Source of the DNA: Deuterostichococcus epilithicus
Lineage: Eukaryota; Chlorophyta; Trebouxiophyceae; Prasiolales; Stichococcaceae
Assembly (NCBI GenBank): GCA_033439295.1
Contig: JAVTLE010000013.1
Span: 2,232,001 to 2,296,000 of the forward strand
Direction of reading: 5' to 3'
Length of the DNA: 64,000 nucleotides
Shown: positions 4,529 through 63,982 of the stretch, one piece after another
Position numbering within the stretch: the stretch's first letter is position 1
Layout: each line of letters starts with the position of its first letter
Made by a program: the position numbers and the translations under genes
The notes under the pieces: generated by a model
Database searches by the model: none
Seen by the model: the letters and a program-made list of their open reading frames with translations, nothing else
Told to the model about the DNA's origin: nothing

Positions 4529-7500
4529 ATGCTGTGCTGTGCTACCTATCGATGCAGACTGCGGCACGAGACTGTCACCGCGGCGCAGCCGATGAGGCAG
4601 TTGTGTCAGGCTTTGCCGGGCATTCGGCGAAATTTACTGACAGCATGCAAGACAGCTGCCGGCTCGACGGCACTCTCAACGACAGAATGCCTAATTGCCA
4701 GCGCTGCTCTGCCACGGGCGTGCTGCCGCCCTGCTGGCAGCAGCATCGGCAGCAGCGGGTCGGTCGCCACAGCAGCAGCTGGGGCGCGCCCGACAAGCTT
4801 TGCATCGCAAGCACTGGAAGTAAGACGTCAGACCGCAGAGGACGCACTGACGGTGGACTCTGACATCGAAACAGCCATGCGCGCCTGCTTCATGCAGCTG
4901 GGCCGCAGCCCCGACAGCCCCGAGTGCACGGCCATGGTGAGCGTCCTGTATTGAACTGCATCCAGAAAGTAAGCCATTGATGAGCTCGTAATCAGAGGTG
5001 TTGGCATGCGGCAATATCGAACGATGGTGGAGATGCTGGAAGCGCGTGTCGCACCGCAGGGAGACTGTGCGCACATGCTGCTTGACTCACTCATCCACTT
5101 TCCTTCAACACCAGGTGGCCACGCTGCGGGAAAATTGGTACTCCACTGCAGGCGATGCGCTTCAGATGTCTGAGGTGCGCACATATTTGCTCAGCATCTT
5201 GCATCGTGGCGGCAGGAGGACAGGAAGGAGCTGCATGCTGCCGCAGGTTGGTGTGCTTCGGATGAGATAGCTTGATGCGCAGCATTCTGTCTGAGGCACA
5301 CAGGTGTCCCTATCTACGGCCCTTTGCGAATGCAGAAAGGGTCTAAGGGCTCTGCAACGCGCTATGCATTGCCTGCAGGCGCAAGCGGTGGCAATGCGCG
5401 TGCCGCTGCGGCTGCTAGATGCGATGCGGTCGCTGCTGCAACAGCCGGAGGAGGGCCGGCAGGCTGATGACACGCCGGCCGCCGCGCCGGCAGCGGCTCC
5501 GTTCGCAGTAGCGGAGGCTGCCGCAGCAGCAGCAGCAGCAGCAGTCGTGTCGTTGTCAGAACCTGAAGACTCTGACGCCGAGGCGGAGGCAGCCGCGGCG
5601 CTGGCGGATGTAGACCCGCTCAGCGACATAGATCTGACGAGCGCTGTGATCCTAGCCGGTGCGCTGTGCTGCACACTTCACTGTCACCTGCTGCAGCTTT
5701 AAACATGTGCGCATGTGCAGCCGATGGACTGGCTCCATCTGGGCTTCGGCAAGGCGGCGACACACAGGATGAAAATCAGCGGCCGAACGAGATGATTGGA
5801 CACAGCTGTATGCGAAATTTCGCCGTTTTGGCTCCGGCCGTCTCGCTGTTCCACCAGTCACAGCATCAGTGGACCTTGGTTCAACGCCAGTCATGGCACC
5901 GCCACAGAGAAGGTGAGCGCAGCCATGCCAGAGCTGGACCCGGACATCATGCGGCGGCGGTGCCCCAGGCGGCAGCGGGCGACCACAGCGGACGGACTGC
6001 CGGCAGATCAACTGCGCGTGACCACACGCAAGCGCCTGCCTCCCTACGCGCTGAAGGTGCACCGTCTGCGCCTTTTCGACTGCTGTGTGGCGGGGGGTTG
6101 CTTCTGGTGGAAGCTAAGCTCCTCTTTGCGACCGAATGCATCAAGGGTGTCGAGTTCCAGGCAGGCGTGCCAGGATTCTGCCGAGCTGCCCGTGCGTCAC
6201 GCTGCACAGCGGCCTTGCAGATGCTCCAATGTAGGTGTTCCCTTGCTCGACACTTGCCGGCTGCAAGCCAGCAACAGGTTGCAGGACATGCGTCTATTCA
6301 GACATGTTGTGCATCCAATCGCGTCCCGCGGCCTTGCCGCCAGGTCAAGGACATGCCGGAGCGGCTGGCAGCGGAGGTGGAGGCCTTCCGGAAGTGGAGT
6401 ACCGTCAAGCACTTTGGTGCGCAGTCGGAGCCCGTTGCGCCTGTCACCGCCAACAAGTACATCGACCACCTGCGGTGAGCATGTCGCACGTCAACGCTTG
6501 CTTTTCTTCGAGGCCGCACCCCCGCAGATGCGGGCAGATATGTGTCATGGCGTCTCCTGCAGCCTTCAGCACACCCACCGGGACGTCCTGTGGGCGCACA
6601 TTGCAGCTGCGGAGGGTGCTGCACGGAGTGTACACGGTCACTGCAAGAGCGTTTCGAGGATCCGCGAACGAACTGGCCTGTGAGCTGTGCATTTCATGGC
6701 CACAAAATGCAGGGGCATCCTGGGGTGGCTGGTCAGCGAGAAAGGGGTTCTGCTGGACGAGCTGACGCTGCGGCATGCCATCCCCTCCCACGACCGGCAG
6801 GTGTGACCGTGTGCTGTTCTGGCTCGCAGTATAGCAGCAAGCGCAACAGAGAGCAGGTGCTGTGCCGCAGCGGCCCCCAGGCTTTCTGATCCTTGTCTAG
6901 GTTGTGCCGGGCCTGATGCAGCTAGGCTTCGACCCATTCTCCCAGCCAAGCATGCAAGTTTTGCCTTACAGCCTGCACCCGTCTCATTACCTCGGAAGGG
7001 GCCAAAGCCGCTCCTTTCCACATCAGCCGGCACAGTGAGGGGGCCTGCTGGGCGGTGTGCTGCCGCAGGGGGTGGCGGTGGTGTTCGACTACGTGCAGTG
7101 GCTGACGGGCGAGCGCGGCGTCAACGCGCGGACGGAGGGCATCGTCATCCGCTCCATCATGGCAGCCGCTAAGTTCCTGTACCACGAGGAATCCACGGTG
7201 AGGCGGCGTCTCAGGCGTGGTCTGGGCTGGGAGGCCAGGTGCCTGCACCACGACAGATGAACAGGGCTCCGCCGGCGTCTTGGGGCATGGTTTCCGTCGG
7301 CCGCCGCCCGGGGGCGCCCCTTCCGCGCATTCCACAGAGGCTTGACGCGGCCCCTGCTCTGCGTGCTTGCGCGAGCCCCACTCTGCGCGTCAAGACAGCC
7401 TCGAGCTGGGCGTGCAGCCGGCGCCGGTCGCCTGCAGGCCCACAGTCACCCCGGCCTGCCGCCACAGGGTCAGCAGCCACCAACCGCTCCACGAGTGATG

Positions 7501-10306
7501 AGGTGTTCGCGACCTGCACGCCTGCTGCATCTGCGGTGTGACAGGTGCGGCCCGCGGAGGGCGACAGAGCGTACAGCGACCTGGAGGTGGTGCGAGAGCT
7601 GCGCGCCATGGCCAATGCCGCCAAAAAGGTGTGTCCTGTGCCGGCGCGCGGCACAAAGGGTCATGGAGGAGCTTTGCTTCCCTGAGGCCGAGCCACCATG
7701 GCCACGCGGCTGCGGCCCCCGCGCAGCCGCTAACAGCTGCCAGGCTGCGCTTCACTGGGTGGCAGTCCAGCCCGCTCTGCATATCAGTGCAGGAAGAGAC
7801 CCTGCTACCTGCTGACGCTGCCTGCTGGGCATCAGTCGGCGCGCTGCAGCGATGGCCGAAACCGCTGTGGTGCGCAGGCGGGCAGGGTGGCAGGCCGCAC
7901 CAGCGATGAGGCCAAGAAGTGGCTCGACTGGCCGCAGTACCTAGCCATGGTGCAGCAGCTGCGCCTGGAGTGCGCAGGTGTGAGACAGTCGTGCCACGGT
8001 CTCTCACAGGACTGCCTCGCCATTTTCATGTGGAGGGACGCCACTTGCTGGGTCAAGATCGACAACGTTCAAGTGGACCATCGTGCTGATGCAGTCTCTG
8101 ACGGTGCCTTCCACTCTGATGACCCAGTCTCGTAGGCCGAGCCCGGGTGATACAGAGCCAGCGTTCATCCGAGCCAAGCACGGGAAAGGAGGCCATTTCG
8201 GCATTGAGCTCCATGAAGCGTACTAACAGCAGCGACTCTGCTGCTCGTGCCGCCGCAGGGCTGGAACCAGGTGGCAGGCAGCGGGCGCCGGGCGCTGTGG
8301 CATGGAGCCTGCAGCGCTATCTCATCTTCGCCATCCTGTCGTGCGTGCCGGACCGCCAGCGCACGCTGCGGGAGCTGCGCGTCGGCAAGACCCTCGTGAA
8401 GGAGGCCGACACGTGCGCATTGCCGTGCTTCCCCTGCGCCGCCATGCCCCCTCCAGAAGTGACCTGCCCGAGAAGGGAGGACTCAAATTCTTCAGCTTTT
8501 GGCGCAACATGAGGATTTCATGCAGCCGATCAACAGCCCATGGGTGCCTGCATGAGCCGCTGCAGGCGAGCTGCCGCCATCAGCGGCAGCTGCCTGCACA
8601 AGCAAGGTGCCCTGGCGGGGCGAGGCGCAGCCGCGGCGAGCGGCCTGCAGCTGCTGCCAACACACCACAGCTGCTTGCTGTGGTGCTTCACTTCCGTGCT
8701 GTGGTGTTGCTACCCTTGAGCAAAGCAAAGACAGTGTGGGCGAACGGCGCGGCAGACGGGCGGCTCACCTGGCTCGGTGCGGGTGACTGCACACCTGCCG
8801 CCTGCCGTGGCTGCTGGCCGCCAAAGAGCTTGCACTGACGGGGTGGCTGCATGGTGCCGGCAGGTGGCTCATCCGCCACGGGGCGGGCGACTACAAGACG
8901 GGGCGCTCCTACGGGGAGCGGCCGCCCTTGACTCTTGCGCCACACATCTATCCCGAGCTGGAGGCTTTCATGGCAACCTGGCGGGCGCACCTGGCGCCGC
9001 GCCACGACTTCCTTTTCAGCAGGTACGAAGTTTTGCTTTGCACTGCTATGTGGTTGCCTGACGGCCGGCGCCCAGCTGGGCGGAGTGTGGACACAACCCC
9101 ACATGCCACAGACGCATCGTGGCGGCACACGAGGCTGCCTGCAACAGCATGTGTGCTTGGCAGTCGCGCGCCGAGCCGCATCCATCCTGACGCAAACTTT
9201 CATATAGGCAGCCGAACTTGCGAGATCCTTGTTCCCACAGCCACCACTGGGGCAGCGGCCTCCAGCAAAGCGTCAGCAAACCGGACCGGCAAACCGCTGC
9301 AGATGCCCTGCATGCCTGGGACAGTGGCGAGCCGCGGTGTCCTTGATGTTTGTTGAACAGGCGGGACGGGTTGCCGCTGGACGACAGCCACCTGTACAAG
9401 CTCTTCTGGACGACGAGTCTGCGGCTGTCCGGCAAGCGCATGAACCCGCACCTGGTAGGGGCAGGGCAGCGATGCCCGACTCGACCCGCGTGCGGCTTCA
9501 CTTGCTTGGCAGCACCCTTATGTGCTGCACGGAAGGGTGCTCAGAGGCTCGCATGTGCAACACCCGCGCACATTGTGCAGGGCTGTGCCGCATCATAGCA
9601 GGTTGCACTCGTGAAGGATGAGTGCACTGCTGCACTGCAGGTGAGGGACTCCTGCGTCTCGTACCTCAGGTGAGCTGTGAGGGCAGCACAGTCACTGCTG
9701 CCTGCATGGCTGCAGACAAAGGCGGCAACAAATCGCTTCTCATGCCCTGCTGCACAATGCACACACCTTCTGGAGCAGCGATGATCGGTGGGCTCCCTGC
9801 CTGCGTGTGTCACACGACATCGAGGACTACTGTGCATGGCGCAGGGGTGACGGCGGCGCCACCGAGCGCGAGCTGGAGGCCCTGGTGCGAAATCAGCTGT
9901 GCCCCGCGCAGCATGGCTTCGCGGCTTTCCTGACGTCCTGCTTGCAGCCGTGGAGATGGCACCGACAGTATGTGCCCCACCTGCGTGCAGGCGATCTACA
10001 TGTCTGTGCGAACACCATCGAACTGAACCCGGCAATTCTTGCACTTCGTCTTGATCGTACAGGCGATCTACATGGGTCACAGCGTATCGATCCAGCGCGA
10101 CACCTACGATCGGCGCACCAAGGGCCAAAAGGTACAGTCACGCTTCTCTGATCCGATATATGACTGCGCCATTTTGCCGCCCATGGTGCGCAATCGGGAA
10201 ATCGCTGTGGTTTGGGAATGGTTGCTTAATGCCTGACTTGCAGGTGGCACCAGCCGTCGAGTTGCTGGCATCGCTGAATCGCCGAGCAACAAGCAAAAAC
10301 CAATGA
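4529..10306 (+). CDS. Intron-rich tyrosine recombinase/integrase-like protein
   Basis: Sixteen exons: 4529-4936, 5115-5174, 5304-5658, 5923-6056, 6344-6474, 6713-6800, 7069-7197, 7545-7628, 7878-7977, 8259-8412, 8864-9022, 9361-9454, 9641-9669, 9845-9884, 10063-10131, 10244-10306. Their lengths sum to 2097 nt, an uninterrupted 698-residue frame. An N-terminal helical region with an Ala/Glu-rich linker precedes a core-binding-like domain (VEAFRKWSTVKHF, NKYIDHLRGILGWLV). The catalytic domain has every expected residue: arginine I in DRQRTLRELRVGKTL, the lysine in GDYKTGRSYG, HxxR as NPHLVRD, the late histidine in YMGHS and the nucleophile tyrosine in DTYDRRTKGQK. Such enzymes cut and rejoin DNA through a covalent 3'-phosphotyrosine. 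In eukaryotes the fold occurs in Crypton and DIRS-type elements. Fifteen introns and no terminal repeats argue for a domesticated or long-resident gene. The ATG at 4529 is the first in frame; the exact start is uncertain. Confidence 0.85.
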
Positions 10307-10624: not shown

Positions 10625-11146
10625 CTACACCACCTGCTCAGCGGGCACGCCAACGCCAGGCCTTGGGGACCGCAGCATGAGCAGCACGCCAGACGCTGCC
10701 AAAGCCAAGATTGGTGGCACCGCTTTCACCACAGTGCCGGACAGGTGTGGGTAATAGCACGTCGTGACCGGCGGCGTCAAAAGCGCCAGCACCGCCAGCA
10801 GCACCGTCGAGACGATAGCGTGCACCCAGTCCTGCAACCCCAACGGCTGGTTGTGCAGATGTTTGCTGTCTGCTGACGCCAGCGTTGTGCTCACGAAGCC
10901 TTTCACAGGCACCATCAGGCCGTGGTGCTTCTTGCCCTCACTGTCTTTCACGCTGTCCGTGAAGGCTGTCACGAAGCACACGAAGCACAGGACCGCGAGG
11001 AAGATGCCGGTGACCGCCTTCTCCGCCGCGCCGCACTTGCCGTCGTTGGTCGTCACCGGGGCCAAGGTCTGGAACAGCAGAAACGTTCCAGTCGGCAGAT
11101 ACGCGGCTAGCTTGCTCCATGAACCCTGTGTGGCGGCGTCGGCCAT
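10625..11146 (-). CDS. DMP (DUF679) family membrane protein
   Basis: Single exon of 173 residues from the ATG at 11146. It matches the DUF679 membrane protein family in length and order: LPTGTFLLFQTLAPVTTNDG (TM1 and loop), a second TM around LAVLCFVCFVTAFTDSV, then DSEGK, GFVSTTL, a third TM after LQDWVHAIVST, the conserved CYYPHL loop and a fourth TM near the C terminus. In Arabidopsis, DMPs act at the ER/tonoplast, and DMP8/DMP9 are needed in sperm for gamete fusion and also serve as haploid-induction genes. Being intronless among intron-rich neighbours is unusual and could reflect retroposition. The function here is unknown; the family call is strong. Confidence 0.88.
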   Translation of the reverse strand: MADAATQGSWSKLAAYLPTGTFLLFQTLAPVTTNDGKCGAAEKAVTGIFLAVLCFVCFVTAFTDSVKDSEGKKHHGLMVPVKGFVSTTLASADSKHLHNQPLGLQDWVHAIVSTVLLAVLALLTPPVTTCYYPHLSGTVVKAVPPILALAASGVLLMLRSPRPGVGVPAEQVV

Positions 11147-19213: not shown

Positions 19214-21438
19214 TTACAGGACGCTGGCTGAGTGGTGGCTGCCCTTTGCTTGGCTGAGCACCGCACGCACCGCCTCCTCATCCTGAGACTGCGTTCTCCG
19301 GTGGCTGTAGCCACGAGGCGCGGCCTGCAAGCAGCAGTGGCACGGATGTTGAGGCTCATCGCTCATCCCTCCAGGCTCAATGCGGACCACACGAGAGAGA
19401 AATGCCACAGAGCAGGCCGTGTCCGAGACGTATCCAGCGTGATTGGCATTGCGTGGGCATACGGCGATTTGCAGGAGCTGTCGCTCATAAAAGAGCTCAC
19501 CTGCCAGCCCTGCGGGTCCTCCTGCAGGAGCCAGGGGTGCTGCTGGATCTCCGGGATGGTGATACGCTGCAGTGGGTCCGGGCTCAGGATGCGCTGGATG
19601 AGGTTGAAGCATTCGCCACTCAGCCGGATGCTTGGCGGAAACTGGTACAATCCCATCCTGATGTTCTGTGCTTGCACACAGCAGCGGCGTAAGCAGGCGG
19701 CTCTGGCAGCTGCGGCGCTGTGGAGGCTTGGCGGCGCAGCGGAGTCCTACACATGCCAATACTGCAGCACTGATGCTGCGTTCGACAAGTGGCCCTCGTG
19801 ACACCAAGTTCTCACAGTCAGCCACGAGTCGCAGCTTTCAAGCTTGCCGGCCCTCGTGCTGCACACCCATGCTGTGGCGCCTAACCTGCTTGATGGTGCG
19901 CGTCTTGTCGCCGGGGACAGCCTCGAAGGGGTACGTCGCCGTTACCAGCAGGAACCTGCAGGCAGGTGCAACTGCAAAGGACTGCCTGCAGGTTCTTTTG
20001 CATTGCCGTGCAGAAGATGCACTGCGTCAGGGTTGAGAAGGCAGTCGTTACTGTACTCCATGATGCCGTAGGACTGACGCTGCCATCTTGCCCTTGCGAA
20101 TCCAGGAGAGTTTGTGGATGAGGCGCATTGCGATGAGATCTCCCGGTAACTCACAGAATGACGCCGCAGGACCAGGTGTCGGCCATCTTGCCATCATACT
20201 TGGAGCCCTCGCGGCTCCAGCCGGCGGAGATGACCTCAGGCGCGATATAGTCGGGCGACCCCTTGCACGAGTTGGCCGTGGAGTGGTTCAGCAGGTGCTG
20301 CGAGAGGCGCAAGCAAGCGCATGTGTCAGACAGCCAGCCTTCCAGAACACGGGAGGAGGAGGTCCCGGGCGATGAGCATCAAGCCGAGCATCAAGCACAC
20401 ATGACAGCATAATGGCACAGGCGACAAACGCCGTGACAAACAGCAGGTGCCCAGGGCCGGCGGCAGTGGCTGTCGAAGCCGGACTGCCACATGCCGCAGC
20501 CTGCAGAGGGTACAAACGAAGCCAGGGGTGAACCTGCATATGTCACGTGCACCTTTGAAAAGCCGAAGTCCGCAATCTTCAGAACTGGCCGCCCTCTGCC
20601 CTCCGTGTGCAGCAGGATGTTCTCCAACTTCAGGTCGCGGTGCATGACGTGGTTGACGTGGCAATGGTGCATAGCGCTAACGAGCTGCCGGAACAGCGGC
20701 CGCGCGGCCGCCTCCGGCAGCGGCCCATTGTCCAGCACCCCGAAGAGTTCTCCCCGTGAAGCCAGCTCCATCACTACCACCAAGTCCTTCTCCGTTGTGT
20801 ACACCTGTCGCGGGCAAGTGATAGCACCCAGACTCATTTGGGGGACTCGACGACTTCGAAGCTGTGGGGTCTCCAGAGCGCCGACATGGCTGGCTGCGCT
20901 CCTGCGGAACGGCCACGGTGTTGCTAAGTATTTGGAGCGGTGACCCACCTCGATGAAGCGGATGATATTCTCATGGTCCAGCAGCCTGTGATTCAAGATC
21001 TCTCGCTCCACGTCCTCTGTGATCTGCAAGCACATGCAGGGGGCTTGGCATCACCGGATTTGCACGTGCAAGAGACCACACAGCCTGGCAGTCGATCGCC
21101 TCGGCAAGGCGATTCACACCTGGTTCAAAGGAATAAATTTGCCCGCATACTGCTGCCCCGTCCGCCTGTTGACCAGAATCTTGGTCACGCCGAAGTTGCC
21201 CCGGCCCAGCTCTTTGCCCTGCCGACACAGGAACCTCCATCACGGGCACTGCACCTCGCGATCCAAACCCATCAGTCAGGCGCAGATACATTTCCTTGCC
21301 AAGACGCACCTCGATGTACGTGTCCGCGCTGGGTCTTCCCGGAGCCAGCTTGGCAAAAATTCTTCGGGCATGCTGTGCAAAGCTTGTCCCACTGCTGCGA
21401 ACGCGCTTCTGTCCCCGCGACGGCAGCGCCAGCGCCAT
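19214..21438 (-). CDS. SnRK2-like serine/threonine protein kinase
   Basis: Eight exons, 21438-21310, 21218-21120, 21023-20949, 20804-20553, 20297-20155, 19955-19886, 19665-19501 and 19324-19214, total 347 residues, the usual SnRK2 size. Kinase signatures in order: glycine loop [11 protein letters not shown], lysine in [26 protein letters not shown] (alpha-C with the SnRK2-like NHR/HENIIRF), [10 protein letters not shown], catalytic [14 protein letters not shown], activation segment [24 protein letters not shown], and a C-lobe ending in [14 protein letters not shown]. The KMAD(T/V)WSCGV and RITI..I..H.W(F/L)L strings are typical of SnRK2 osmotic-stress/ABA-type kinases. The tail is short, with [14 protein letters not shown], and lacks the long acidic patch of land-plant SnRK2s. 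The 40-residue Ser/Arg-rich N-terminal extension is an open feature. It is transcribed in the same direction as the sirtuin, 415 bp downstream of its stop. Confidence 0.9.
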
Positions 21439-21853: not shown

Positions 21854-24066
21854 CTAGGAGGCATCGATGAGCGCTTGCAAATCGTCCCCCCAACCCAGCA
21901 GCTCGCAGAGCTCAAGGACACCGTCGTCGGCGTCGCCGATGAAGGCGGCATCCCTGACATTGTCAGCCTCCCGATCGAACAGGAACCCACGGCTGGACCG
22001 TGCCTCTGCCACGCCCACCTTCTCACGGTTGATGAGCAGCCGCGGGCACTCCGGGCCCACATCATCTGCAAGCGCTAGCAGCCACTGTGTCAGGCTGGCA
22101 GCACTGACCTTTGATGTTGCAAAGCGCATCTTGAATTGTATCTCGCGCGGGACGGCGCTGAAGGCAAGCATCCCAGGACAGCACCAGAAGATCGAAGCAC
22201 TCAGGGCAGCTGCCAGCAGGAGCTGCGAAGTCCTACCTATGAGCGATGCGAACGGGTGCACGACAAGAGAGGTGCCCATCGTAATCAGTAGGTCAGCGCG
22301 AGGCAGGTCGGCCGCCCGCCTCTTGAAGAAGCGAATGGGCAGCGACTCCCTGTCGGCACCAGCAACGCCAGCAGCTCGAAAATTTAAAGGTCACACTTCT
22401 GAAGCGGGAACAAAGTACAGATCCTGCGCACACTTCGGCCATGGCGGCGGCCATCAGCCGGTGAGCTGGCACATACTTATGAAGGGTGACAGCCCAGACA
22501 GGGCGAGAAGCCTCACCCAAAGAACACGATGTCAGGCTTCACAAGGCCGCCGCACGAGTCGCAGCGGCAGATCTCGTTGGCCATCACGGCTGCCTTCACA
22601 AACCCTGTGGTGTGCTCCTTCTTGCAGCCCAAGCAGTGCGCGCTATCAAAGTTGCCGTGCGCAGCGACGATGGCGTCATGCGGCAAGCGAGCTTGATGCT
22701 CCAATGAGTCGATGTTTTGGGTGAAACATCGAAGCAGTAGCCCCTTTTCGTGCAGCAGCCGCATGAAATGGTGCGCCGGCGTCGGCTTGAAGGTGCCTGG
22801 GAACAGCTCCTGCACCAGCAGGGTCTAGGAGTTCAAGCAGCAATAGCAAGGCCGCAACATCAGAACGACATCCAGGCACCAATGTCGCCCGTGAGGCATC
22901 AAGCCCGGATGCACCAGCATGGACACACCAATCATAGTAGCTGATCACCTTTGCCAATGTATGGAAAGGCTGTGGGTTCTGCCTGGGGTAGGAACATGCA
23001 GCATCAGCGGCAGGGTGCTCGAAGGCACAGTGACAAGCGAAGCAGGCAGCGGAGTGCGGCCTTGTGCTTAGTTGTGGTAGCCTGACAGCCCACCTGAAGA
23101 AATCAATTTCGAAGAGCGCCTGCGGGTGTGGCAGGTTGTACTCTTCCAGCTGGCTGTACAGCCCAGTGCCCGGGCTGCGGAAGTCTGCGACAACATCCCT
23201 GACGGCCCTCAGTGCACACAGCAACAACTTGTTGGAAACCACCGTACAACCTACCCTGGCTGCTGTCGCTGCGACATCCTGCAATCACATGGTTGTCCTG
23301 GCGGGCGAAATGCTGGTGTTCGATGTGTGGCCGGCATGCACCTGGGATGCCGGCGCTCACAGAGATGCCGGCACCGACCATGCACACGATGCGGCGAGCG
23401 CGCCCAGAGGCGATGTACTCAGCCACGCCCGCCAGGTCAAAGGAGCTGAGCAACCGCTCCCGCACTGTCTGCAGGATCAGCACAGTCGCTGTCCTGGAAG
23501 GCCTGATGGTGTCGTGCTCGAGAGGCGGTGGCAAGTTCACGCATGATGCAACACCAGAATCGGCTTCCCGCCCATTTGAGACTCAACAGACAGAAAGCGG
23601 GTGAACCTGGGGAGCGGACAAGTGCAGCTGCAACCTCTGCAGCCGCGCATACAGCCACGACTCGTCCTCGCCATCACTGTCTTCTTCCTCGTCCTGCAAT
23701 GACTGTGCGTTGTTTGCATCACGATGAACTGCCGACTTCCCACTCTGTCATGTCAGGTGACGGCAGCATACGCTAGATCCACAATGGGACATGCATGTGC
23801 AGCGTCTTTACCCCATCAGAGCCTGAATCCAATTGCTCCTCTGATACGCTGTCGTTTGCCTGCACCACCTCTGCCACGTCTCGCGCGATCCGCTCTGCAT
23901 TGGCCGCTGCCGCCGCTGGCGGCGCTTTTTCGCCGCTGACAACATGCGGCGCTGGATCGTTTGCCTGCTCATCTAGACGAGCAGTGGATTGCCGGTCTTC
24001 TGATGCTGTGGCGTCGGTTTGTGGCTGTGACCTAACCGCACCATCTCTTGCGACAGACCCGGCCAT
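21854..24066 (-). CDS. Sirtuin (SIR2 family NAD-dependent deacylase)
   Basis: Eight exons: 24066-23812, 23693-23607, 23468-23342, 23184-23094, 22982-22949, 22809-22517, 22349-22237, 22065-21854; 403 residues. An 85-residue Ala/Asp/Glu-rich leader and an acidic [13 protein letters not shown] segment precede the catalytic domain. NAD-binding GAGIS ([20 protein letters not shown]), [11 protein letters not shown], the catalytic histidine in [11 protein letters not shown], a zinc site (CLGC with CRCDSC), [10 protein letters not shown], and [14 protein letters not shown] are all intact. [22 protein letters not shown] and [15 protein letters not shown] are class I (SIRT1/2/3-like). The enzyme should remove acyl groups from lysines using NAD+. 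The acidic leader without an obvious transit peptide favours a nuclear/cytosolic location, which is inference. It is divergent from the PP6 subunit gene. Confidence 0.92.
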
Positions 24067-61085: not shown

Positions 61086-63982
61086 ATGGCCGAGCAGCTC
61101 AGCCTCCGCGTACGTCTGCTTTGCCATTTGAGCTGTGATGTTTGCTTGACACACATCACTGCTCGCTTTGTGCCTTGCACCATTCAGTATCAATGCTCAT
61201 GGACGGGGACATCTGATATGTGTGTATGCCATCATGGATGTCACAGAGAAAGCACCGCAGTGCGTCTGTTGATCATTCATGCCTCATGCCTGCAGGGTAC
61301 TCTGGAGGGTCACACCGGCTGGGTCACCAGGTCCGTACATCTGATTTTCTGGCACCATTCTGTGCAGTACCGCTGTACATTGCAGCAGGCACACCCGGAT
61401 TGGTTGCACCTGGCTCGGAGCCACTGACATTGTTTCCTTGCCGCTTGCAGCATCGCGACGCCGCTGGACCCCAACAGCGACATCGTCCTGTCCTCCTCTC
61501 GGTGCGCCGTGCTGCACTGCAATGGCGGTCCACATGACAGACTCTGCTTCTGTTACAACCTGCTGAAGATGCACTGCCAGGTGTCTCAAATTTGCTGCGG
61601 ACTCGACCGGCATGCAGGGACAAGACAGTGATCGTCTGGCAGCTGACGCGCGAGGAGGGCGCCTACGGCTTCGCGCGCCGCGCCCTGCGCGGCCACTCGC
61701 ACTTTGTGCAGGTCAGTGTGTCGAACCTGGAATAATCCAGAAAGACTCCTTGTTACTGGAGGGCGTGGAAGGGGTTCTCTGCCGTGTGCCGGGAACGGTG
61801 CACACAAGGCACACTGTACAGGCTCAATCTGGTTGGAGCCGGCTGCAGCAGCGTGCCGTCCTGATCGCCGCGCTGGACACCCGCTGGCGCTTCCTTCACA
61901 CATGCAAGTCGCCGGCGCGCAAGTTGAACCCCCGCCCTTCCCGCCTGCAGGATGTGGTTATCTCCTCGGACGGCCAGTTCGCGCTGTCGGGCTCGTGGGA
62001 CTCGACGCTGCGGCTGTGGGACCTGAACAGCGGCAACACCACCCGCCGCTTCATCGGCCACGCCAAGGATGTTCTGTCCGTCGCCTTCTCTGTGGACAAC
62101 CGCCAGGTCTGTTTCATCTCCATTTTCCCCCTGAAGTTCCCCCTCGTTGACAGTTGGTCACCCAGCACACTGCGAGCTGTGAGCCGTTCTCCTCGGGGCA
62201 CACCCTCTTTTGGGTGTCTGCAAAGCGGCGGGCGCCGGCGGCGCGGCGCACTCCCGCGGCTCGTGCAGCCCCCGCAGCACCGGCATGTGCGCCACACGTT
62301 GTGCCAGGGGGCCCCTACCAGCTGTGGGATCGGATGCCTGGTACTGAACGTCCTGCTCCTGCTCACTGCACACGCAGATCGTGTCAGGCAGCCGCGACAG
62401 GACCATCAAGCTGTGGAACACGCTGGGCGAGTGCAAGTACACCATCGGCGAGCCGGACGGCCACACCGAGTGGGTCTCCTGCGTCCGCTTCTCCCCCGTC
62501 ACCACCAACCCCATCATCGTCTCCGCCGGATGGGACAAGCTCGTCAAGGTGGCCTCTCGTCCTTCCCGAGTCGCAAGCTGTATTGTCCATCCTCGCCAGC
62601 TGCTGGAAAGCTCCTGGAGAGTTGGTTGGGGTGCCACATTGCTGTGCTGCGGCAGGCGCCCACTGTTGCCAGTTCTGGACAGGAGTTGCACTGGTCACCA
62701 GGCGTGAGGATTGGCACATGCCAGACGCCACTGGCTGGGGAGCATCGTCCCGGGGAGCGTTGCGGGGCTGAGGCGGCTCCCATGTTCTGTGGCGCAGGTG
62801 TGGAACCTGACGAACTGCAAGCTGCGCGCGGACCTGCGGGGCCACACCGGCTACATCAACACAGTCACCGTCTCCCCCGACGGCTCCCTGTGCGCCTCCG
62901 GTGGCAAGGTGAGCCTCACATCCGCCCTGAGTGTGCCCCCCCGCGCTGCATGCTCGATGTTTGCCCTTGCAAACGCATGGTCCAGGTAACAGGCCCATCT
63001 GCCCTGCTATGCGCAGCGCCATGCCACCTGCTCGGTCGCGGCCCTGGACGAAGCGCGGCCCTGGACGGAGCGCGCTCCCCGCAGCCAGTCAGGCCCTCGG
63101 TACGCATGCACCTGAGCAGACGCGTGTGCCCTGCCCGTGCAGGACGGCGTGGCAATGCTGTGGGACCTGGCTGAGGGCAAGCGCCTGTACAGCCTGGACG
63201 CCGGCGACATCATCCACGCCCTGACCTTTTCCCCCAACCGCTACTGGCTGTGCGCTGCCACCCAGGTGCGCCACTGCTTCCCCGACCCCCCCCGGAGCTC
63301 CTGCAGCTTGCGGTCGTTGCTGCTGCCCTGTCTGCTGCAGCCTGTCTGGTTCCGCCGCGACTCTGCACTGGCAACGCCCGGTGTTATGGCCAAGATTGGG
63401 CGGCCGTCCTGGACCTGGGGCTCATGTTGTGCATGCATGGCTGCCACATCCACGCCTGCTTCTGGAGCTGACTCCGTTTGACGCAAGTTTCGTCGTACAT
63501 ACGCAGTCCTGCATCAAGATCTGGGACCTGGAGAGCAAGTCGATCGTCGATGAGCTGCGGCCGGATTTCCCTCCAGTGTCGAAAAAGGCCACTGTGAGTT
63601 CCTGGACTCCCGACTTGCCCCGTGTGCTGTTCTGAGCTGTCCAATCTGTCATCAGATGTGTGTGGGAATGTATATGACAGCCGCAACGCGTGCCCGGTGA
63701 ATGCGCAGGTGCCATACTGCACCTCGGTCGCCTGGTCGGCAGATGGCGCCACGCTGTACACCGGCTACACCGACGGCCAGGTGTGCTCGAAAACGATCGG
63801 CTCTGGGTTGCAAGAACCACAAAGACTGGATCAGTAGGCAGCATTGTGATTGGCCTGCGGCTCCCGAGCCGTCCTGGTTGTCGAGATGGCCGTGTTCCTC
63901 ACCATTGCATGTCAAACCCTTCACATCCGTGCCTCCCTCCGGCTTGCAGATCCGCGTCTGGAGCGTGGGGCGCACCGTCTAG
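61086..63982 (+). CDS. RACK1: RACK1 (G-protein beta-subunit-like, small ribosomal subunit scaffold)
   Basis: Eleven exons: 61086-61109, 61296-61330, 61451-61501, 61618-61711, 61951-62106, 62378-62548, 62798-62908, 63143-63265, 63507-63593, 63709-63780, 63950-63982; 318 residues, the usual RACK1 length. Seven WD repeats follow in order, with the landmark pieces [122 protein letters not shown] and [17 protein letters not shown], ending VWSVGRTV. Chlamydomonas knows it as Cblp. RACK1 sits on the 40S head near the mRNA exit and docks signalling proteins, including kinases. All exon joins are standard GT-AG. The gene is complete, its stop 18 bp before the window edge. Confidence 0.97.

Follow-up and report, generated by a model that had tools for sequence, protein, structure and literature searches.

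A multi-exon tyrosine recombinase gene

The stretch of Deuterostichococcus epilithicus DNA analysed here, 64,000 nucleotides long and referred to as the window (C11:2232001-2296000 of a 46.8-Mb genome with 21 contigs), carries a gene for a tyrosine recombinase. The gene lies on the plus strand between positions 4529 and 10306 and is divided into many exons by GT-AG introns of consistent phase. An earlier note on the same DNA had claimed such a gene at this place, and the introns as well as all of the motifs named there were recovered. A script-built GT-AG model has 17 exons and encodes 697 residues, with the stop codon at 10304-10306. Removal of an optional exon of 57 nucleotides (6901-6957), which is probably not real and lacks a counterpart in the paralog described below, leaves 16 exons, 15 introns and 678 residues. 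The earlier count of 16 exons is thereby kept, while the length of 698 residues given with it is not safe (697 or 678 in these models) because the first two exons and the 57-nucleotide exon are unsupported. The gene itself is real, since the twelve exons between 5908 and 10131 have a coding-type composition, with third-position G+C of 0.82-1.00, and a paralog on contig C19 has introns in common with it. Third-position G+C is 0.65-0.67 in the first three exons and 0.52 in the last.

The structure upstream of exon 4 is unsettled. Exon 1 of the earlier model (4529..4936, an open frame) and exon 2 (5115..5174) are of doubtful coding status, with G+C by codon position of 0.58/0.65/0.67 and 0.60/0.50/0.65, respectively, and nothing in the C19 paralog model or among the bacterial relatives corresponds to either of them. 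Exon 3 (5379..5658) is a plausible first coding exon; it encodes a low-complexity alanine-rich and acidic stretch, is followed by a phase-1 intron as in the paralog, and its frame has ATG codons at 5364 and 5394, either of which may be the true start. Within exon 4 (5908..6056), at LRVTTRKRLPPYALK, the protein starts to be homologous to the paralog and to Nostoc proteins. This exon matches the paralog at E 4e-4 and the protein of Nostoc sp. HK-01 in register, at E 0.36 for the exon alone.

A presumed N-terminal DNA-binding part starts in exon 5 (6344..6474) and is followed by exon 6 (6713..6800), which has 88 nucleotides here and in the paralog. Exon 7 (7069..7197; 129 nucleotides in both paralogs) presumably encodes the second half of the core-binding part (QWL...AAKFLYHEES) and is reached by tblastn from the Nostoc HK-01 protein at E 8e-6. 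Next are exon 8 (7545..7628) and exon 9 (7878..7977; 100 nucleotides in both), the latter with a KKWLDW motif, found as KKW[LV]DW in all three of the closest proteins from Nostoc and Aulosira. The catalytic residues follow: Arg I in PDRQR (codon 8354-8356) in exon 10 (8259..8412), the Lys in DYKTG (8895-8897) in exon 11 (8864..9022), the His of HxxR (9449-9451) in exon 12 (9361..9454) and its Arg (9644-9646) in exon 13 (9641..9669; 29 nucleotides in both), the HxxR codons being split by an intron. Beyond exon 14 (9845..9884; 40 nucleotides in both), exon 15 (10063..10131; 69 nucleotides in both) holds the His of MGHS (10078-10080) and the nucleophile Tyr (10105-10107), and exon 16 (10244..10306) ends in a TGA stop.

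Alignment of 16 sequences (2 algal, 14 cyanobacterial) showed Arg I, Lys, Arg II, the late His and the Tyr to be present in every one, and the His of HxxR in 12. In the main copy the set Arg-Lys-His-x-x-Arg-His-Tyr is complete, in agreement with the intact catalytic set claimed earlier, and the protein of this copy is predicted from these residues to be a catalytically complete tyrosine recombinase.

A paralog with shared introns on contig C19

A second gene was found on contig C19 (L016, minus strand, 8309-4769), readable as 14 exons encoding 479 residues and about 51% identical in protein sequence to the main gene. From the exon 3/4 junction on, all 13 of its introns coincide with introns of the main gene in position and phase, and 8 of the 13 shared exons are equal in length. 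The main gene served as the guide for the paralog model, in which two of the 13 introns need GC-AG ends (6963-6844 and 5155-5039 of L016). Both start with GCGCGT, and read-through of the first is possible, as it has no stop codon; they may reflect GC-AG introns in this alga or decay of the C19 copy. Since the two copies have their introns in common, the duplication probably came after the gain of introns.

A protein search of the genome (E < 0.01) with the main protein led to C19 as the one other place, and the paralog as query returned the same two places only, both searches scoring the best candidates only. Comparison of the two loci by blastn gave three matches, all overlapping exons of the main gene, and no common flanks. 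Elsewhere in the genome, a 9.4-kb segment that includes the main gene matched only the paralog exons (two places) and three short places, all three within the alanine-rich stretch of exon 3; this search passes over simple repeats and very common words. Among the matches listed by tblastx between the window and 30 kb around the paralog, many short scattered ones appeared besides the shared exons. We read these as noise, and the conclusion on the flanks rests on blastn. The paralog has a stretch of 5,000 N (C19:1767530-1772529) some 3 kb downstream.

The two copies have been under constraint; the earlier note had supposed selection on catalysis. Over 389 aligned codons, the proportions of nonsynonymous and synonymous differences (pN and pS) are 0.326 and 0.614, and the ratio of the corresponding rates (dN/dS) is about 0.34, a rough value. 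A rate test counted 31 changes in the paralog only and 21 in the main copy only, which is not significant (p 0.21).

Cyanobacterial plasmid integrases and other relatives

The 340-residue core of the main protein was compared by tblastn with 72,556 plasmid records, of which 50 matched at E up to 10. Three proteins stand at the top, each aligned over 99% of the core: those of Aulosira laxa NIES-50 (AP018311; 38.0% identity, E 2e-69), Nostoc sp. C057 (NZ_CP040290; 37.0%, E 7e-68) and Nostoc sp. HK-01 (AP018324; 38.0%, E 8e-67). The same three were the best matches of the C19 paralog (34-36%, E 4e-52 to 2e-54). A further 16 plasmid records fell below E 1e-4 with 23-31% identity, all of them from cyanobacterial genera, and among non-cyanobacterial plasmid records Azospirillum alone fell below 1e-3 (E 4e-6). 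By sequence, the nearest relatives found are integrases that the cyanobacteria Nostoc and Aulosira carry on plasmids, and this nuclear, duplicated and intron-rich recombinase clearly belongs to the same lineage.

The homology covers the catalytic and core-binding parts, and the Nostoc and Aulosira integrases share with the alga the catalytic residues and the motifs PDRxR, KTG, PHxxRDS, MxH and YDRRT. Their genes are uninterrupted (570-577 residues), unlike the algal ones, which contain introns and are found on nuclear contigs. The bacterial N-terminal region of the Nostoc proteins found no convincing match upstream of algal exon 4. All seven relatives scanned matched PF00589, five above the cut-off of 27.1 bits (32.4 to 53.1 bits) and two below it, the three Nostoc and Aulosira proteins at 41-53 bits. 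Two of these three (L047, L048, L049) are annotated as hypothetical proteins, and the Nostoc C057 plasmid has a ParA-type gene within 6 kb of the integrase. Among phage records, the Nostoc HK-01 protein had no match with an E value of 0.01 or lower. Pattern searches of virus contigs and genome contigs returned no relatives, although short peptide and DNA patterns can miss kin at 38% identity, so that relatives on cyanobacterial chromosomes may have gone unseen, the sensitive searches having covered plasmid and phage records.

The assignment to tyrosine recombinases was extended by profiles. The main protein matches the phrog_1 integrase family at E 2.5e-7. A profile of ten sequences (2 algal, 8 cyanobacterial) matched solved structures of XerC-like, XerA, XerD and XerH recombinases and of Int, with E values from 4e-8 to 4e-5, and the catalytic layout is like that of the Xer recombinases; one of its matches in the PDB carries the name of a ribosome-associated factor. 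PDB searches with an algal protein or the pair alone gave nothing relevant. Profile comparison with an alignment of XerC, XerD, lambda Int and Cre likewise gave 93.9% for the ten sequences, whereas the algal pair by itself hardly matches it (1.2% local, 14.2% global). The pair alone does match a profile of Bacillus phage SPbeta YomM, XerC and XerD (94.7%, E 6e-8; at most 0.6% in 40 column shuffles), and one of only two phage proteins, YomM and a Psychrobacillus phage integrase (93.3%). In part of the domain these phage proteins are about 25% identical to the algal sequence, a likeness far weaker than that to the cyanobacterial proteins. YomM, found by phage tblastn at E 0.06, had been a candidate for the closest lead and was superseded by the much stronger plasmid matches.

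Tyrosine recombinases of eukaryotic nuclei are mostly known from mobile elements. A domesticated Crypton, or another eukaryotic transposon of this class, would fit a gene in a eukaryotic nucleus with no repeated copies, and such domestication is known in animals (PMC3212892); the species key of that paper includes Chlamydomonas reinhardtii. The animal Crypton-derived genes, which carry DUF3504, are likewise host genes made from a tyrosine recombinase (PMC3212892). The algal proteins differ from them: DUF3504 was not among the matches of either one (the HMMER filters drop most matches above E ~0.1), and the cyanobacterial plasmid matches, at E 2e-69, indicate another source lineage. Genome searches also gave no match to DUF3504 or DUF3435, weak evidence in that none of 14 control genomes matched either. 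The Crypton descent that the earlier note had suggested was thus not borne out, and we regard it as very improbable. A Starship captain was rejected as well, as neither algal protein had DUF3435 among its matches. Searching the genome with PF00589 and phrog_1 turned up nothing, missing even the recombinase gene itself, and is no proof that the genome lacks further recombinases or transposons.

Neither repetition of the Crypton, DIRS or Ngaro type nor the many near-identical copies considered in the earlier note were seen: there is one divergent paralog, and the flanks are not repeated. No reverse transcriptase or other transposon-type domain was present in the 30 open reading frames (ORFs) scanned of the 106 listed in the window, a scan that intron-rich genes can escape; the earlier note had likewise reported no reverse transcriptase or other transposase nearby.

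The gene might instead belong to a resident low-copy mobile or viral element, such as a polinton-like virus or an integrated plasmid. The ten-sequence profile matches two recombinases found by motif on virus contigs (96.9%, E 1.3e-10), with a score of 77.0 against 17.7 for the best of 60 shuffles; the YomM/Xer profile matched them about equally (95.2). Kinship between the family of alga and cyanobacteria and these virus-contig recombinases is likely, if distant, and the Nostoc match is far closer. Against a resident element stand the many introns, the lack of flanks common to both loci in the blastn comparison, the absence of repeated flanks in the genome, and ordinary domains such as DUF679 and a protein kinase in the window, so that we consider it quite unlikely. 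Descent from a polinton-like virus was rejected, the algal pair alone scoring 21.0 against the virus-contig recombinases and the best of 40 shuffles 21.7. The two virus-contig recombinases (L045, 431-1360, minus strand; L046, 6060-6968, plus strand) give a profile match of 97.8% to the eight cyanobacterial rows alone, a hint that virus and plasmid recombinases may be linked.

Origin, predicted activity and surroundings

Phylogenetic analysis of 16 sequences placed the two algal proteins together (100/100) and joined them with the three from Nostoc and Aulosira (91/89). In a tree of 24 rows, with six outgroup sequences and two more cyanobacteria, the alga and the Nostoc/Aulosira group were again united (76/94). 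The rows were chosen by hand, 14 being cyanobacterial in the first tree and 16 in the outgroup tree; left out were a second plasmid of Annamia, one Planktothrix record, three of Geminocystis and further Nostoc plasmids, among others. The algal and Nostoc/Aulosira rows were trimmed to the core, and the sequence used for Azospirillum was read as an open frame from a record without annotation.

The gene could also have come with the plastid ancestor, by endosymbiotic gene transfer, rather than by a later transfer from a free-living cyanobacterium, which would leave the mechanism unchanged. A constraint that groups the 16 cyanobacterial rows as a clade without the alga was not rejected (approximately unbiased (AU) test, p 0.155), and a 2025 re-analysis deems plant genes that group with cyanobacteria alone likely plastid-derived (PMC12711439). 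The best trees argue otherwise in joining the alga to a single cyanobacterial group, although neither support is starred. Transfer from a cyanobacterial plasmid is somewhat more likely than a plastid origin because the relatives were seen on plasmids, in sensitive searches that covered plasmid and phage records only; the plastid route is possible and in our view the more doubtful of the two.

The explanation we consider probable is a nuclear gene that encodes a tyrosine recombinase of the cyanobacterial-plasmid kind with a complete catalytic set, and that was gained, acquired introns and was then duplicated. An algal ancestor would have received the recombinase gene from a cyanobacterial source; the gene would then have taken up introns and lost the bacterial N-terminal region, and would later have been duplicated. 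Several results weigh against this explanation. The main protein reaches only 13.2 bits against PF00589, below the cut-off, the C19 paralog matched neither PF00589 nor phrog_1, and an NCBIfam scan of both algal proteins returned no match. The dS between the copies is 1.28, which makes their dN/dS rough. The outgroup branch has a support of 59/78 and the outgroup branches are long, giving a weak root, and the direction of transfer is for this reason not proven. Lastly, Asn replaces the His of HxxR in the C19 paralog (NxxR); the same His is also replaced in 3 of the 14 cyanobacterial relatives, by Gln, Lys or Asn.

This loss in the C19 copy would suit a protein that has become a DNA-binding regulator, like many animal Crypton-derived genes, with catalysis as a leftover. 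The main copy retains the complete catalytic set including the Tyr, despite about half of the residues differing between the copies, and we hold the regulator to be unlikely.

Tyrosine recombinases act as a tetramer on two short sites and exchange strands through a Tyr-DNA intermediate. By analogy with them, the algal protein is expected to have recombinase activity and to recombine specific sites. Its N-terminal arm and catalytic domain would clamp a short, roughly palindromic DNA site; the Tyr would attack the DNA backbone, assisted by the Arg-Lys-His-Arg-His set, and strands would be exchanged by way of a Holliday junction, as Xer and Int enzymes do it. It is a guess that the two paralogs form an unequal pair like XerC/XerD. 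A broader proposal, that a cyanobacterial plasmid recombinase was domesticated and duplicated as such a pair and now carries out programmed or maintenance rearrangement at defined nuclear or organelle sites, is speculative and we give it little weight. The N-terminus of the paralog (35 residues with 4 basic and 0 acidic) is no evidence for organelle targeting, as 137 of 1045 ATG frames of the window open for 35 codons have at least 4 basic and 0 acidic residues.

A literature search of partial coverage found no description of such a nuclear algal recombinase gene in the titles and opening lines of abstracts that it listed. The chloroplast int gene of Oedogonium (orf512) also encodes a green-algal tyrosine recombinase, for which its authors suspected horizontal transfer; it differs in being chloroplast-encoded and in having green-algal mitochondrial ORFs as its best matches (PMC2442088). 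An intron-rich, unrepeated pair akin to the integrases of cyanobacterial plasmids suggests another source for the nuclear tyrosine recombinases of eukaryotes, and with it one can test whether site-specific recombination serves a green alga as a host function.

A scan of the window for tRNA and Rfam families gave no match. Of the 30 ORFs scanned with Pfam, 26 had no match and four matched at E up to 0.01. Nearest to the recombinase gene, 318 bases downstream, is an ORF with DUF679 (10625-11146, minus strand, E 7.4e-39), which we take to be the plant DMP membrane protein family. This ORF and a plastid-type rbcL on contig C21 are in keeping with a green alga. The other three encode a protein kinase (20394-21035), a SIR2 domain below its cut-off (22679-23284) and WD40 repeats (61612-63171).
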